From contig NZ_CP042913.1 of assembly GCF_008065115.1 (NCBI RefSeq), forward strand, positions 4,691,278 through 4,755,277: a stretch of 64,000 bases of DNA. Reading direction: 5' to 3'. Positions within the stretch are counted from its first letter, which is position 1. Each line of letters begins with the position of its first letter. The notes under the pieces are model-generated. The model did not search any database. It saw only the letters and a program-made list of their open reading frames with translations, and had not been told where the DNA came from. The translations under genes were made by a program, and so were the position numbers. Positions 55,952 through 62,811 of the stretch are shown in pieces. This stretch comes from Bythopirellula goksoeyrii. Lineage in GTDB: Bacteria; Planctomycetota; Planctomycetia; Pirellulales; Lacipirellulaceae.

Positions 55952-58156
55952 TTACTTCGCCAGGGCGACATTATCTTCGTGCAACAATTCAAGATAATCG
56001 AGTGCAATCGCAATGACCTCTTCGTTGTAGGGCGTCATCGGAAATACCGGACTATCTTTGTCTTCGAGACTCTCGAACATTTCTTCTTGATCTTTGTCCG
56101 AATTAACTTCAGCACGCTCAGCTAGGAACTTTTCCTTATTGAGCGTCACTGTGGGCTCTTGCTGACGTTTGATAATCTGATCGATCTTTTGCTGTTCTTT
56201 GATGAAGAACTCTGCTTTGGCTTCACGAGCAGCGGACCGTTGCTTCAATTGCTCGATCATGGGAGCCGAAACCGCGTGGTAATTGTCATGTGGTTGTGGC
56301 GCGACCCGGTCGAACTTAAGAGCATAATCCAAATCTGCCTCGCCGATTCCTTCCCAATAGCTCGTGCGATAGGGAATCTCAACATCAGAGACAACACCAC
56401 GGTTCTGCGTGCTGTCTCCGCTGGGTCGATAGAATTGCTGGATGGTCATCTTAAGGGCACCCAGATTAGGAGCTTCTTGCAGTGGCAAGATTTGCGTCCC
56501 AAGTTCGAACAATTGCTGAACGGTTCCCTTTCCATGGGTTGAGTGGTCGCCAATCACTAGTCCACGACCATAGTCCTGAATCGCTCCGGCAAAAATCTCG
56601 CTAGCGCTGGCACTAAATCGATTGATAAGCACAATCAACGGTCCCGACCACACTTCGCCGGCTTCTTCGTCGGGATAAGGCTGAACTCGACCGTCAGGAC
56701 CCTTAACCTGGACCACAGGACCCTTGTCAATAAATAAGCCCGTGGCTTCCACCGATTCAGGAAGCGAGCCACCTCCATTGAAGCGAAGATCCATTACGAC
56801 AAGGTCGACGTTCTGCTTGTTGAATTCTTCGAGTAACCTGCGAACGTCCCGAGTCGTGCTTTTGAAGTCCACTTTGCCGGCCCGACGACCTTCCATATCC
56901 ATGTAAAAGCTCGGCAGACTGATAACGCCGATGCGTCGCGAGGGACCATTCGATCCCTTTTGTTGTTCTAAGATCTTGCCTGTAACATTCTCCACAGTTT
57001 CGGTTTCGGGCACGATCGAGTCAACCGCATGAGAGTGCTCGTCGGAAGCGGTCGGATCCGTGGCAGGAGTTTCCTGGATCGGACGCTCTAAGATCTCGCT
57101 ACGAGCCTCGCTGTCTTTTAATTCAATACGCGCCCGCGTTATGTCGTAAATCTTACGACCGGACTTGTCAGCTGGCATGACTTCGAGCCGCACGATCGTG
57201 TTCGGCTTACCCCGGATCAATTGAACGACATCGTTAATCTTCATGTCGACGATATCGACAAATTCGCCATCAGTTCCCTCGGCAACGCCAACAATGACGT
57301 CTTCAATTTTGAGTCGTCCATCCTTGTCGGCTGCTCCACCGGGTACGATCCGGCGAACGATGGTTTCACCATACTTGGATTCGAGTGATGCTCCGATTCC
57401 ATCAAGCTCCAGGCGCATCTGAATCGTAAAATTATCCAAATTGCTTGGAGACATGTAACTGGAATGGGGGTCGAAGCTGGTCGTGATCGCAGTGAGGAAA
57501 TCCTCCAACAATTCGTCATTACTGTGTTGTTCCCAGTTGCGCTGAATACCACGGTACCTCTTGTGTAGTTTTTCAACGGCTTCTTCTTGGGGAACCTCGT
57601 CAGCTAGTTCCAATAGCAAATCGTATTTGACCCGCTTGCGCCACCTTTCGTTGAGTTCTTCTTTTGTCTTGGCGTAGCCCCATTCATCGGGATCACGAAT
57701 CATGGTTTCATCAAGCGTGAAATCATGCTCGTCGTCGATGTATACTTGAGCGACGGCAACTTGCTCATTGACCCGCTGCAGGAATCGATCGAAGATCTTC
57801 TTGGCGATTTTCACATCCCCAGACTTAACGTAGTCATCTAGATTGTCACGCTCGGCCATGAATTCATCTACGTCGCTCTGTAGAAAAAACAGTTTCATGC
57901 GATCGAGGCTCTTAAGAAACATGTCGAGAGCCCGATGCGAAATCTCATCGTCCATCTGCATTTCAGAGAGATGCCTGCGATCCATCAGCGCGGCTACCAT
58001 AATTGCAATATGGCGATCAACGCGCGTGGGATCCGTAGGCTTGGCGACTACGGTCGGAACCAATAGCGCTGTCGCCAAACATATGGTCGCTAGTGAGGCC
58101 AACACGAAATTGCGAAAAGGCCGTGACAGCCCGAAACGCTCTCCGTCAAAAAACAT
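55952..58156 (-). CDS. prc: Carboxy-terminal processing protease, Prc/Tsp type
   Basis: A 734-residue exported protease with an N-terminal membrane/signal segment (about 15-35), then the Prc helical domain (ERWRKRVKYDLLL, SFDPHSSYMSP), a PDZ domain (GIGASLESKYGETIVRRIVP) and the S41 catalytic core. The core has NRFSASASEIFAGAIQDYG with its Ser and STHGKGTVQ with its Lys. A C-terminal helical part follows. It cleaves tagged or misfolded periplasmic proteins at the C-terminus. ATG 58156 has GAGAGG about 10 bases upstream. It carries a ~45-residue insert near ETPATDPTASDEHSHAVDS. Confidence 0.9.
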   Translation of the reverse strand: MFFDGERFGLSRPFRNFVLASLATICLATALLVPTVVAKPTDPTRVDRHIAIMVAALMDRRHLSEMQMDDEISHRALDMFLKSLDRMKLFFLQSDVDEFMAERDNLDDYVKSGDVKIAKKIFDRFLQRVNEQVAVAQVYIDDEHDFTLDETMIRDPDEWGYAKTKEELNERWRKRVKYDLLLELADEVPQEEAVEKLHKRYRGIQRNWEQHSNDELLEDFLTAITTSFDPHSSYMSPSNLDNFTIQMRLELDGIGASLESKYGETIVRRIVPGGAADKDGRLKIEDVIVGVAEGTDGEFVDIVDMKINDVVQLIRGKPNTIVRLEVMPADKSGRKIYDITRARIELKDSEARSEILERPIQETPATDPTASDEHSHAVDSIVPETETVENVTGKILEQQKGSNGPSRRIGVISLPSFYMDMEGRRAGKVDFKSTTRDVRRLLEEFNKQNVDLVVMDLRFNGGGSLPESVEATGLFIDKGPVVQVKGPDGRVQPYPDEEAGEVWSGPLIVLINRFSASASEIFAGAIQDYGRGLVIGDHSTHGKGTVQQLFELGTQILPLQEAPNLGALKMTIQQFYRPSGDSTQNRGVVSDVEIPYRTSYWEGIGEADLDYALKFDRVAPQPHDNYHAVSAPMIEQLKQRSAAREAKAEFFIKEQQKIDQIIKRQQEPTVTLNKEKFLAERAEVNSDKDQEEMFESLEDKDSPVFPMTPYNEEVIAIALDYLELLHEDNVALAK

Positions 58157-58398
58157 GACAATCCCTCTCATTGTTACGCTTAGTAAACTATTGCGTCTGA
58201 AGTAAATGATATGCCTGCAACTACGGTAAGATAGGTGTCCAGGCAAATCGTCGCAGATGGGCATCAAGCCCGAAATAGGTTGTTGTCATAGTACAAGGCG
58301 AGCCCGATGCGGACAAGATCGACACACACGGGGCAAAGTCGCAACATTTAGCTATGAACCGACTTCCGGCTCTACAATGGGACCGAAATGCGGACAAT

Positions 58399-59406
58399 CT
58401 ATTTCGCTTGAGACGTTCTGCCAGGAAGACTCGTTCCGTCGTCTTGTACGGAATCACCAGCGGCGGGGTTCACTCCAAAATCAAGCAATTTGAGCACGCT
58501 CCAGCGATTAGGCTGAGCGTCGGCGTTGAAATCCGTGGACCAGGCTTGTGCCTCGCCACCTGGAATCTTCGAAGATATCATCCTGATACTTTGAATGCTC
58601 CCTTTTTCTCGAAAGCGAACAGACTTTTCGCAGACGCAAGGGACAAGCTGATCTCCTATCAACAGGGGAACGTGTTCTGCAACAAGACCTGATGTATCCG
58701 TGGGAGTGGTCGCAACAGGCACTTGTTCTGCCTCCTCGAATGTTTCACGACGAAGGAAATGAGGAAACTTTTCAGCCGAATAGTAAACGCGGTCTCGCAG
58801 ATTCTGAGCATCTTCGCCGTAAAGTACATCCCAAACCTCGCACTCAATGGGACGCTCATCGAGCATGACAATCTCGTCATCGCGTCGAGAAATGGAAAAG
58901 ACGACACCAGGCCGATCAGTTAAGAGCCTCAATATCCTAGTATTGACGGGTCCCACAATCTGTTTGCCAGAGACTTCTACCGTTGCCTGGGTTTCCAGTA
59001 CATAACTGTCTTCGGCAATTGCCTTCAAAGTCTCCTTTTGAAGGGTCACACTTCGACCATAGATTTTTCCAGAAGCATCAAAGGTTTCGGTAGTGATTTC
59101 AATTTCTCTCCACGAACCAATCGGGAACTTAGCCCAAAGATGATGCTGTGAAGGATAGGTGAATTGTTCTTGATCAGACCTTGTCTTTTCACTCTTCGAT
59201 GTAGGTTCTGCAGGTTGCCCCAAGTCTACCGATGCTGTGCTCTCCAGCTCTGGTTTCAATTCAGCATCGGCCTGCGTTCGGTCGTCACCGGCAGTCAAGA
59301 CTGCTGACACCTGCTCTGCAGGAAGTTTTTCCTTAGCAAATAAGCTAGGAGCCAAGAGGCTATTTGCAAAAAAGAGACAGACAATGGCGGTAGTGAAATT
59401 CAGCAA
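58399..59406 (-). CDS. Secreted protein of unknown function
   Basis: A 335-residue protein with a signal peptide (MLNFTTAIVCLFFANSLLAP, cleavage near LFAK) and a Glu/Ser-rich linker to about residue 80. A beta-rich domain with WAKFPIGSWREIEITTETFD and VTLQKETLKAIAEDSYVLET follows. I do not recognise the family; the W-x-x-F-P-x-G-S-W motif resembles a group of exported planctomycete proteins. It follows the SelA-like gene on the same strand by 176 bases and precedes prc. Confidence 0.6.
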   Translation of the reverse strand: MLNFTTAIVCLFFANSLLAPSLFAKEKLPAEQVSAVLTAGDDRTQADAELKPELESTASVDLGQPAEPTSKSEKTRSDQEQFTYPSQHHLWAKFPIGSWREIEITTETFDASGKIYGRSVTLQKETLKAIAEDSYVLETQATVEVSGKQIVGPVNTRILRLLTDRPGVVFSISRRDDEIVMLDERPIECEVWDVLYGEDAQNLRDRVYYSAEKFPHFLRRETFEEAEQVPVATTPTDTSGLVAEHVPLLIGDQLVPCVCEKSVRFREKGSIQSIRMISSKIPGGEAQAWSTDFNADAQPNRWSVLKLLDFGVNPAAGDSVQDDGTSLPGRTSQAK

Positions 59407-59582: not shown

Positions 59583-60683
59583 TCACTCGCAAGCGGCAAC
59601 AAGGTGCTGATCCCAGCGGGGAAATACGCCACGCAAGTCAAGCCACACTTCTCCGTCCTGACTTTCATTTTGTTGGTCGCGGCAGTTGATTCGAGGTGTA
59701 GCCTCCAGAAAAGCGTCTCTGAGATTGTTGCCCTCCTCTCCATCCGGCTTGATGACAACCGCCCAAGAGTCGTTCGCCAGGCGGGCAGCATCCGATTCAC
59801 ACCAGACCGAAGTGCAGCGAGTTGGCTGGGCCGATGCAACATTTTTGCACGAGGTGAGAAGCGTAGCAATTCGTTGCGCCCTTTGTTCAAGATTCTCAAG
59901 CGGCGTAGTCAAAAGTTGCCACAAGGGAATCTGATGTGTTACACGGTCGCCGGATTGATAAATCTTCATCGTGGCACAGAGAGCAGCCAAGGTGAGTTCG
60001 TTAGCGGTGTTCTCATCGATGGGAGCATGACGAACACACTCGGCAATCTTTTCTTCTTTGCCGACGACAATTCCGCAACTAGGCCCCCCCAGTAGTCCGG
60101 CACCATCGACGACAACCATATCTGCACTCTCTAATCTCTGTGCAATCGTCTCGTAGTGAACCAAACTAAAGTCTCCAGGGTTTAGTAGCCCTGCATAGCG
60201 AGCGACAATGACATTGCCACCAACAGCCCTGGCTGTTTTCTCAGCCACTGCAAAACTATGAGTGACCCAAGCACTCTCTGCGCCCGTGGTCTCAACGAGG
60301 GCCGTCGCAACACGGTCGGACAAGGTGGAATTCGCCGCTAAATACTCTGTTGATACACGTACGAGCTCGTCGACTGCCACCTCGGCCAAAGGCGGGGTTG
60401 GCTGACAGTCGCCCAAAAGAATCCCCGTGGCATTAACACAGGGGATGGAACTCTCTGCAGGGCCAAGTAGTCGGCGTGCTAATCTTTCAGCCAACTGACC
60501 TACCGAAGGAATATTCCCCCAATCAGCACGTTGCCGAATGTTTGTTTGTAACTCCTCGAGAAATCCAGTTGCTCGTTGCGCAACAGTAGTTTGATTCACC
60601 CGTTTTACTACTCGGGCTACTGTAGGATGCGATAAGAGCTCGCCGAGCGAAGGGAGCTTGGAGAATGGTGATTCTGATTTCAT
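59583..60683 (-). CDS. SelA-like protein lacking the PLP lysine
   Basis: A 366-residue protein aligning by eye with selenocysteine synthase (SelA). It has the N-terminal LPSLGELLSHPTVARVVKRV, then CVNATGILLGDCQP where SelA has an I-N-A-T-G-V motif. GAGLLGGPSCGIVVGKEEKI matches G-D-K-L-L-G-G-P-Q-A-G in SelA, and LTLAALCATMKIYQ is also shared. The PLP-binding lysine just before L-L-G-G-P is replaced by Gly, and the middle is about 90 residues shorter. It is thus unlikely to make Sec-tRNA. ATG 60683 gives MKSESPFSKLP. No selB or selD is nearby. Confidence 0.75.
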   Translation of the reverse strand: MKSESPFSKLPSLGELLSHPTVARVVKRVNQTTVAQRATGFLEELQTNIRQRADWGNIPSVGQLAERLARRLLGPAESSIPCVNATGILLGDCQPTPPLAEVAVDELVRVSTEYLAANSTLSDRVATALVETTGAESAWVTHSFAVAEKTARAVGGNVIVARYAGLLNPGDFSLVHYETIAQRLESADMVVVDGAGLLGGPSCGIVVGKEEKIAECVRHAPIDENTANELTLAALCATMKIYQSGDRVTHQIPLWQLLTTPLENLEQRAQRIATLLTSCKNVASAQPTRCTSVWCESDAARLANDSWAVVIKPDGEEGNNLRDAFLEATPRINCRDQQNESQDGEVWLDLRGVFPRWDQHLVAACE

Positions 60684-61030: not shown

Positions 61031-61492
61031 CTAGGGATCAAGGCGAGGTTGAGACATCCACTCACCCACGGTCTGCGGGCCGCTGGATGGCTCAGGTTCT
61101 GCTGTGAACAACTTACTCCAGAAACCCTGCTTCTGCTGAGCAGACTGACGAGAACTAGATGCTGGAGATTCTTCGCCGCCAAATGTGAACATTTCCTTGG
61201 TGCCTTCCCATGCCTTGGCAGTACCAGTGCTAACTTTCTGGTACCCCGACTTTACGGGCCCAGTAATTGAGGACATGTCAGGCATCGACACCTTCGGCAT
61301 CGTGATCTTGGGAAGTGGAATTGAGGGCCAACCGGTTTGCCGAACTTCCGAATCCTCATACATTTGAGGAGTACCACCTACTGCTTCCGGTGCGCCTGCA
61401 GACTTAGCGCTGAGCGCTGTGAGTAGCATCATATGACAAGAAAGTACCGCAAACGTAAAGAATGCTTTATTGAATAAATGAGAATGTGTCAT
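61031..61492 (-). CDS. Small secreted protein
   Basis: A protein of about 153 residues with an N-terminal signal peptide (HLFNKAFFTFAVLSCHMMLL, cleavage near SAKSAGA). A repetitive Pro-Lys part follows (IPLPKITMPKVSMPDMSS), then a helix with Gly, Lys and Thr (VKSGYQKVSTGTAKAW) and a Ser/Gln-rich end. I do not recognise a family; the K-I-T-M-P-K-V-S-M-P pattern occurs in exported planctomycete proteins. ATG 61492 and ATG 61501 are both possible. The lipoprotein gene follows 43 bases later. Confidence 0.6.
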   Translation of the reverse strand: MTHSHLFNKAFFTFAVLSCHMMLLTALSAKSAGAPEAVGGTPQMYEDSEVRQTGWPSIPLPKITMPKVSMPDMSSITGPVKSGYQKVSTGTAKAWEGTKEMFTFGGEESPASSSRQSAQQKQGFWSKLFTAEPEPSSGPQTVGEWMSQPRLDP

Positions 61493-61734
61493 ACCAGTCA
61501 TCTCCCGTACTTAGGCTGGAGTGTGCTAAAAGTATTCAACAAGTCACCCTGCCCTTCTACTGTTATTTGGGCCGGAAGTGTTCCAAATCTTGCCAATACC
61601 GTCCAGAGAGGTTTTTGCCAGCAGAATTTGAGCAAATCACAGCGAAAAACTCGAAACTTTAGTGCTCCTGCAGGGTTTTGATATGATAGCTGTCGAACAA
61701 GTGCCGTCCCAAAGCAAGAACCTTCCCCCGAGCT

Positions 61735-62811
61735 ATGCTATCCTTCAAAAATTACAAATCGATGATCGCAGCGGCATTGTCGCTGCAATTCGTTTCGGTA
61801 GGCTTAGCGGCAGCAAAGCCCGATGACTCCGCCGATCTGTTTACACGACTCGATAAAGATACCGACGGCCAGTTGAACTCGGCCGAGATATCAGACGAGT
61901 ACTCCTTTCTCTTCCGCCGGCTAGTGAGGACAGCCGACTCCAACTCGGATGGACAACTTTCTATAGAGGAGTTTCAACAAGGAGTCTCTGCAGAGCGGCC
62001 TGAGAAACCGCTAGCGAAGAAAGTGAGTGCCGAATTGCCCGGTTCCGATGCCCTGCTCTTGTTACTGGCCTGGATGGACACAAACTCGGATCTGACCATC
62101 AAGTCCGACGAAGTACCCGCGAATCTAAAGACGTTGTATAACCAGATCCATCAGCAACTAAAATCAAAAGACAGCAGCCAATTTCGAATAAGGCAACTCC
62201 AACAACAGTCACCCCGCTTTACCCAATTGGCGCTCCGCTACACCCAACGCCAGCAGATTGATGTCGAGGTCGAGTTGTCCCTGCTCTCTGATGAGCAATA
62301 TGCGCTGGTCGAGCGTCTTCGTGGCAAAGTTGAACCTGGAAAAGCCTTCTCAACCCGTGAAAATGCCGAGTCCATTTTCAGTCGATTGGATCGCGACGGG
62401 GATGGTGTTATCGCGATTGACGATCTTCCTGAAGAAGTGAAAGAGCGTTTCTTTGGTATGCTTCAAAGGGCGGACCAGAACGGCGATCGACGAGTCACCG
62501 AAACAGAGTTCTTGGGCTTCCAGGGAAAGGTCTCGAAGTTCTCTGAAATGAACTCTAATCGTCCCGAAGTTACCAAACGAATCGCTCAGCTATTTCGTCG
62601 TGCCGACCGCAACAGTGATGGGATGCTCACTCGCCGGGAAGCTCCCCGGTTTCTGGCAGCGCGTTTCAATGAGATCGACGCCGATGGAGACGGAAAACTA
62701 AGCCGCCAAGAACTGTCTAAGTCACTTGAGTTACAGAATAATGTTGCCCCAGAAATGTCGAACAAATCTTCTCCAAATCGCAAGAGTTCCTCAAAACGCC
62801 CCAAAAAATGA
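61735..62811 (+). CDS. Secreted EF-hand repeat protein
   Basis: A 358-residue exported protein (signal peptide ending near LAAAK). It has seven EF-hand-like loops of the D-x-[DN]-x-[DN]-G type: DKDTDGQLNSAE, DSNSDGQLSIEE, DTNSDLTIKSDE, DRDGDGVIAIDD, DQNGDRRVTETE, DRNSDGMLTRRE and DADGDGKLSRQE. Two of them (DLTI and DRRV) lack the usual Gly at position 6. It probably binds calcium outside the inner membrane. ATG 61735 is the natural start. A basic tail (SSPNRKSSSKRPKK) ends the protein. It is divergent from the small secreted protein gene. Confidence 0.85.
   Translation: MLSFKNYKSMIAAALSLQFVSVGLAAAKPDDSADLFTRLDKDTDGQLNSAEISDEYSFLFRRLVRTADSNSDGQLSIEEFQQGVSAERPEKPLAKKVSAELPGSDALLLLLAWMDTNSDLTIKSDEVPANLKTLYNQIHQQLKSKDSSQFRIRQLQQQSPRFTQLALRYTQRQQIDVEVELSLLSDEQYALVERLRGKVEPGKAFSTRENAESIFSRLDRDGDGVIAIDDLPEEVKERFFGMLQRADQNGDRRVTETEFLGFQGKVSKFSEMNSNRPEVTKRIAQLFRRADRNSDGMLTRREAPRFLAARFNEIDADGDGKLSRQELSKSLELQNNVAPEMSNKSSPNRKSSSKRPKK

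Follow-up and report, generated by a model that had tools for sequence, protein, structure and literature searches.

A conserved SelA-like protein without the PLP lysine in Lacipirellulaceae, a probable pseudoenzyme derived from selenocysteine synthase

Introduction

The closest described relative of the protein reported here is bacterial SelA, the selenocysteine (Sec) synthase, represented by the structures of Aquifex aeolicus SelA (3W1H) and 8UZW. The N-terminal helical domain of SelA binds tRNA-Sec, and in Helicobacter pylori a SelA (HP1513) has been kept after the loss of Sec decoding, with the other sel genes absent; that protein has lost the N-terminal tRNA-binding domain and has kept Lys285, Arg86, Arg312 and Arg315 (PMC4607533). 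The Sec genes of planctomycetes have also been described, and the portion of that paper drawn on here does not mention a lysine-less SelA paralogue (PMC4807772); nor did we find a description of one in open-licence papers on SelA or on planctomycete selenocysteine. By fold, DgaE (7LC0) and Cap15 (8T7J) are more distant relatives. A further precedent is SPTLC1, a protein of PLP fold type I without the lysine, which is retained for a non-catalytic role as the partner of its catalytic paralogue SPTLC2.

Here we describe a SelA-like gene in a window of 64,000 nucleotides from Bythopirellula goksoeyrii (positions 4,691,278 to 4,755,277 of contig NZ_CP042913.1). Its product resembles bacterial SelA at both ends, where the helical N-terminal domain and the C-terminal domain are kept, together with the NATG motif and the LLGGP loop, and SelA is its best structural match; it differs in lacking the PLP lysine, the selenophosphate-binding arginines and about 89 core residues, and in that the B. 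goksoeyrii genome holds no Sec machinery over the cut-offs applied. Like the H. pylori protein, it is a SelA without other sel genes and has lost the dimer-dimer residues, but otherwise it is the mirror image, keeping the N-terminal domain and losing the lysine and the arginines.

Results

The gene was first noticed in a preliminary description of the sequence as an intact SelA-like gene with a shortened core and without its PLP lysine. It and the features to which we refer below are as follows (all on the reverse strand; coordinates of the window).

59583 to 60683, reverse strand: coding sequence of the lysine-less SelA-like protein, 366 amino acids, with the ATG at 60683 and the stop codon ending at 59583
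60438 to 60683, reverse strand: N-terminal helical domain (residues 1-82)
60129 to 60221, reverse strand: remnant of the core stretch (residues 155-185), 31 amino acids, against 120 in the lysine-bearing rows printed
60096 to 60098, reverse strand: codon GGA of Gly196, at the position of SelA Lys285 in the alignment
59586 to 59654, reverse strand: conserved C-terminal motif with LDLRxVFPRWDQ (residues 344-366)
61031 to 61501, reverse strand: S2, upstream, 156 amino acids, no Pfam or NCBIfam match
58399 to 59406, reverse strand: S16, downstream, 335 amino acids, no Pfam or NCBIfam match
55952 to 58267, reverse strand: S41 C-terminal processing peptidase

The reading frame is indeed intact, its translation running from ATG to stop without an internal stop codon. 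Homology to SelA is likewise confirmed: the protein scores 70.3 bits with the Pfam SelA model (PF03841, cut-off 22.8), which makes it a member of that family, and the best sequence matches among solved structures are the SelA chains 8uzw and 3wcn/3w1h. With the SelA equivalog model TIGR00474 it reaches 100 bits, far below the cut-off of 267.9, and the DgaE-family models TIGR01437 and NF047797 give 15.3 and 14.6 bits against cut-offs of 385.3 and 600. The lysine is missing, Gly196 occupying a column that is Lys in 44 of the 88 aligned rows. The preliminary reading of D-G-A-G in place of D-K was right as to the absence of the lysine and wrong in register, since the last Gly stands at the lysine and the Ala at the preceding Asp. 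The core is shortened as well: the stretch before the lysine loop has 31 amino acids, whereas all three of the printed rows with the lysine have 120, a loss of about 89 residues. A sequencing accident is excluded, because orthologues in 11 further genomes share the Gly and a core stretch of 30-38 amino acids. These orthologues are 44-75% identical to the B. goksoeyrii protein. Orthologues with a species name include those of B. polymerisocia Pla144 (75% identity), Lacipirellula limnantheis I41 and Adhaeretor mobilis HG15A2. A search of the genome contigs with the single protein found no relative, and a search with the closer alignment A1 yielded 18 loci.

An AF2 model of the protein was built from 18 sequences (mean pLDDT 73.3, pTM 0.61; residues 74-97 are among those below 50), and a second one, of the Lacipirellula long form, from 10 sequences (mean pLDDT 69.1); both are of moderate quality and uninformative on ligands. 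By Foldseek, the former is best matched to SelA 3w1h_A (E 1.3e-16), and VIA-align gives Z 23.6 with SelA 3wco_B (rmsd 2.5, 271 residues aligned); the long form aligns to SelA with Z 26.8 over 333 residues (rmsd 10.6). After SelA, the next other family is that of DgaE (Z 15.5), and Cap15 also matches (Z 14.9); in contrast to the lysine-less protein, both are PLP enzymes, judging by the family name of DgaE and the title of the Cap15 entry. The human serine palmitoyltransferase complex likewise contributes chains to the matches outside SelA (Z 14.7). By this comparison PLP fold type I is retained without the lysine, and sequence and model alike place the counterpart of the tRNA-binding domain of SelA at the N-terminus.

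With the residue roles taken from PMC4607533 and placed through an alignment of planctomycete SelA to 3w1h, eight active-site residues (Arg86, Arg119, Ser217, Ser282, Asp284, Lys285, Arg312 and Arg315) are invariant in all 44 lysine-bearing rows. All eight are replaced or gapped in each of the 12 short forms: Arg86, Ser282, Asp284, Arg312 and Arg315 are replaced, and the columns of Arg119 and Ser217 are gaps. None of the three selenophosphate-binding arginines (86, 312 and 315) thus remains in any short form, that of B. goksoeyrii included, and the residues of the dimer-dimer contacts of the decamer (T191, T192, D199 and Y220) fall in gaps in all 12 of these rows. Retention is partial in the 24 longer lysine-less rows, with Asp284 in 10, Arg315 in 6, Arg312 in 5 and Arg86 in 3. 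At the lysine position, 34 of the 36 Lacipirellulaceae orthologues have Gly, that of G027 has Ala and that of G028 has Cys; none has Lys. A lysine elsewhere in the pocket, which would have spoken against the loss of PLP binding, was looked for and no alternative was found; no core lysine is conserved across the 36 rows, the commonest, K209, occurring in 9. The protein is thereby predicted to be unable to bind PLP in the manner of SelA or to make selenocysteine. Other residues have become fixed instead: G196 (34 of 36 rows, against 0 of 44 in the enzyme), N264 (35 of 36), R271 (35 of 36 against 17 of 44) and R67 (32 of 36 against 10 of 44); C203 is present in 32 of 36 lysine-less rows and in 13 of 44 enzyme rows.

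An orthologue without the lysine is present in 36 of 43 Lacipirellulaceae genomes, with a fragment in one more; many of the 43 genomes are incomplete, and among those of at least 90% completeness and at most 5% contamination it is present in 27 of 28. No copy has an internal stop in any of the 36 genomes, which come from 11 of 14 genus groups (the copy in G023 is cut by a contig end). Together with the Gly in 34 of 36 rows and the absence of a conserved core lysine, this distribution bears out the earlier suggestion of a conserved, non-PLP SelA paralogue. A separate lysine-bearing SelA accompanies it in 11 of the 36 genomes and was not found in 25. Lysine-bearing homologues within the same genus, raised beforehand as a possible refutation, do exist; where found, they accompany the lysine-less gene as a separate copy, G015 being the exception. 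Six genomes (G015, G020, G026, G029, G031 and G037) yielded no lysine-less orthologue, and some diverged genes may have been missed by distant queries. In G015 and G029 a lysine-bearing SelA was found and no lysine-less orthologue; G037 has the proC-S2 flank but not the gene, neither flank checked in G029 holds it, and G015 and G020 also yielded neither the S41 orthologue nor U8, the neighbour between proC and efp, so that for these two gene loss and an assembly gap are both possible. G032 has a lysine-bearing SelA and, beside proC, a fragment of the lysine-less type cut by the contig end. As a separate observation, G029 carries another lysine-less SelA (L052:153-1565, reverse strand) with Gln at the lysine position (SADQMIGACQGG) and a remainder that is near normal by eye; it is 48% identical to the SelA of another planctomycete and lies on a contig of 3.1 kb, so it may be a contaminant.

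The genome of B. goksoeyrii is one closed contig of 6,473,141 bases, and it was checked for selB, selC and selD, as had been proposed. A search with TIGR00474 found no second SelA, only two pieces of the lysine-less gene itself being matched; the best scores for SelB (166 bits, cut-off 242.25) and SelD (55.9 bits, cut-off 125) remained below threshold. The tRNA-Sec model gave 15 matches, one of which (50.4 bits) exceeded the gathering score of 47 and is tRNA-Leu(TAA) by ARAGORN; the next two (46.4 and 44.3 bits) are tRNA-Ser(TGA), the identity check covering the top three of the 15. By these measures B. goksoeyrii shows no sign of the rest of the Sec pathway. Among the 25 genomes that have the lysine-less gene only, SelD is over the cut-off in none and SelB in one (G022, a broken assembly, which may well have a Sec system). 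None of the 25 has a tRNA-Sec match of 60 bits or more, a line of our own choosing; matches of 47-55 bits occur in several of them, and the identity check of such matches covered B. goksoeyrii.

The 11 genomes with both genes allow a paired comparison over 55 species pairs that are the same for both proteins. Mean identity in the N-terminal domain is 0.48 for the lysine-less protein against 0.31 for the enzyme and is higher in 47 of 55 pairs, and in the C-terminal motif it is 0.53 against 0.41 (higher in 35 of the 45 pairs for which sufficient columns were available). The reverse holds for the first core part (0.43 against 0.67, higher in 1 of 55 pairs), the second core part (0.30 against 0.58, 0 of 55), the lysine loop (0.58 against 0.85, 0 of 55) and the small C-terminal domain before the motif (0.29 against 0.40, 5 of 55); the middle helices are about equal (0.48 against 0.50, 19 of 55). 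Given that the species pairs lack independence and that the copies of the enzyme are perhaps of other origin, the safer figure is the within-protein contrast between the N-terminal domain and the first core part, put at 0.41 (jackknife error 0.04). Such a pattern reads as a change of function and not as decay. Between B. goksoeyrii and its nearest partner B. polymerisocia dS is saturated and omega not computable; dN is 0.177, compared with 0.066-0.124 for five neighbouring genes, 0.258 for S2 and 0.278 for S16. The mean net charge of the N-terminal domain is +2.3 in the short and +1.7 in the long lysine-less forms, against -0.8 in the enzyme, and the whole protein is acidic (mean pI of the short forms 5.2).

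In much of Lacipirellulaceae the gene order is guaA, ettA, efp, U8, proC, S2, the SelA-like gene, often S16, then S41, a phnP-type MBL gene and trpD. In B. goksoeyrii and B. polymerisocia the part from S2 onwards is seen, and proC, efp and ettA were not found in the stretch examined. S16 is near the SelA-like gene at 10 of 22 Lacipirellulaceae loci, and the S41 peptidase gene is in the same stretch at 21 of 22. At all seven loci compared from family f2, which belongs to the same order, SelA precedes S16, and proC lies upstream at six of the seven, 0.8 to some 7 kb away. The lysine position in f2 is Lys in G395, His in G163 and G381, and Phe in G247, G369, G375 and G423; G316, a late find that none of the trees includes, has Gly there and no matching synteny within 18 kb.

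In a tree of 85 rows, the 41 lysine-less rows form one side of a branch with support 100, and in a 30-row tree the 16 lysine-less rows do likewise. G032_L073 and G023_L014, both truncated where their contigs end, and G029_L052, which lacks the lysine and is nearest to the SelA of other planctomycetes, had been dropped before. In the 30-row tree, the lysine-less rows and the lysine-bearing SelA of G395 and G029 together form one side (support 98), apart from the other lysine-bearing SelA of Lacipirellulaceae. From synteny and trees together, the most likely ancestor of the lysine-less gene is an old SelA of Pirellulales, and the working SelA of most relatives is most likely of a different lineage. 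A single loss of the lysine would suit the one-sided branch of 41 rows, in which long branches are involved; against it stand the Lys of G395 at the syntenic locus and the variety of the replacing residue (Gly, His or Phe). In AU tests on 30 chosen rows of the 85, grouping G395 with the f2 lysine-less rows was weakly rejected (p-AU 0.029), grouping it with all lysine-less rows was not (p-AU 0.135), and grouping the lysine-bearing SelA of G029 with the lysine-less rows of Lacipirellulaceae was again weakly rejected (p-AU 0.026). The core stretch before the lysine loop has 115-126 amino acids in 14 lysine-less rows from distant genera and 93-112 in 8 from genera closer by; in genus g1, G030 and G038 it is down to 30-38. 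Since G038 groups with the long forms of its own genus (support 97), the large core deletion happened at least twice.

Weak matches elsewhere in the phylum, in genus g23 of family f5, proved to be other SelA-like proteins with a lysine (FSGGKAIRGPQ in the two printed). L146, L147 and L150 (in G431, G280 and G415) are also other SelA-like proteins of the class; they retain a lysine within a loop of another kind, FSGGKAIRGPQ or YSGGKHLGGPQ, and are perhaps related to DgaE.

Discussion

We consider it rather probable that the protein is a pseudoenzyme derived from SelA that needs no PLP, catalyses nothing and acts by binding through its N-terminal domain. The Sec pathway would have been lost, or a second SelA would have taken over its work; the lysine would then have gone and next the arginines, followed in Bythopirellula by about 89 core residues. 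Selection would now bear most heavily on the helical domain at the N-terminus and on the C-terminal motif, and the remains of the large domain may serve to hold the protein together. It is the constraint on these two parts that makes a binding protein the most likely outcome, and the conservation pattern as a whole favours binding over catalysis, so that the new activity or scaffold suggested at first would be conjectural in either form. Counted against this reading are a dN above that of five neighbouring genes, a small C-terminal domain less conserved than that of the enzyme, middle helices that are merely equal, and the six genomes of 43 in which the gene was not found. That the ligand is tRNA or another RNA is the most tentative part, a guess from ancestry, and a protein ligand is equally possible; tRNA-Sec is excluded as the ligand in genomes without tRNA-Sec. 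The narrower proposal, that in Lacipirellulaceae a selenocysteine synthase has turned into a Sec-independent tRNA- or RNA-binding factor, its catalytic half discarded and in part deleted outright, its tRNA-binding half and C-terminal motif under new and stronger constraint, and the protein retained where tRNA-Sec is absent, is one that we put forward as speculative and, as it stands, somewhat doubtful; the acidity of the whole protein counts against RNA binding.

This locus represents the reverse of the case of H. pylori, in which a SelA also outlives Sec decoding (PMC4607533). As the protein passes the Pfam SelA cut-off, annotation by simple means can credit the genome with a Sec trait that it lacks, and the lysine column offers an easy filter against such errors. 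If the N-terminal domain binds RNA, the family would show a tRNA-modifying enzyme turning into a plain RNA-binding factor, with the stages (the lysine lost and the core kept, then the core deleted) preserved in living genera.

One alternative is a PLP-independent enzyme, in which the Gly-rich loop DGAGLLGGPSCG with Gly196 and Cys203, together with the fixed N264, R268 and R271, would make up a catalytic site of a new kind. With an identity of 0.58 between species pairs, this loop ranks among the best conserved parts, and it has fixed residues absent from the enzyme, but it is less conserved than the loop of the enzyme while the N-terminal domain is more so, Cys203 is missing from 4 of 36 rows, and the core beside the old pocket has been deleted in at least two lineages; we regard this explanation as unlikely. 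The same losses of lysine, arginines and core, the raised dN and the six genomes in which the gene was not found would also suit a functionless selA relic in decay. Such a relic would hardly be free of internal stops in all 36 genomes from 11 of 14 genus groups, be present in 27 of 28 genomes of at least 90% completeness, have Gly in 34 of 36 rows with new residues fixed, and conserve its N-terminal domain better than the working enzyme does, and decay is thus a very improbable account.

The example of SPTLC1 and SPTLC2 raises the analogy of a regulatory or structural subunit in a heteromer with lysine-bearing SelA, for which the 11 genomes with both genes and the serine palmitoyltransferase chains among the structural matches could be cited. 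Unlike SPTLC1, however, the lysine-less protein has no catalytic paralogue that was found in 25 of the 36 genomes, the closed one of B. goksoeyrii included, and the short forms have gaps where SelA makes its dimer-dimer contacts; as a general role a heteromer fails already in Sec-free closed genomes, and we give the idea hardly any credence. The protein might also assist S16 and the S41 peptidase as an accessory factor encoded in one envelope-linked operon, as the frequency of S41 in Lacipirellulaceae (21 of 22 loci) and of S16 in f2 (7 of 7, beside 10 of 22 in Lacipirellulaceae) suggests, but this too seems very improbable. By single-query tblastn, from which diverged copies may escape, S16 is undetected at 12 of 22 Lacipirellulaceae loci and S41 is found at 0 of 7 f2 loci; the SelA-like gene and S16 do not overlap, with 177 nt between them in B. 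goksoeyrii, and other surrounding genes are equally syntenic.

In the same surroundings, no repeats were found upstream of the SelA-like gene, and a promoter-like site 41 nt before its start codon is within the range of shuffled sequence (4 sites in the region, against a mean of 2.2, sd 1.6, in the shuffles). U8 (L060:13771-14307, forward strand, and syntenic copies) encodes about 180 amino acids without a Pfam or NCBIfam match and lies between proC and efp at those of the compared loci where both were found. At 61735 to 62811 of the window, on the forward strand, lies a gene for an EF-hand-type protein of 358 amino acids; its matches to LanM (52.4 bits, cut-off 135) and XopAW (76.9 bits, cut-off 120) are below the cut-offs and probably reflect the EF-hands only.
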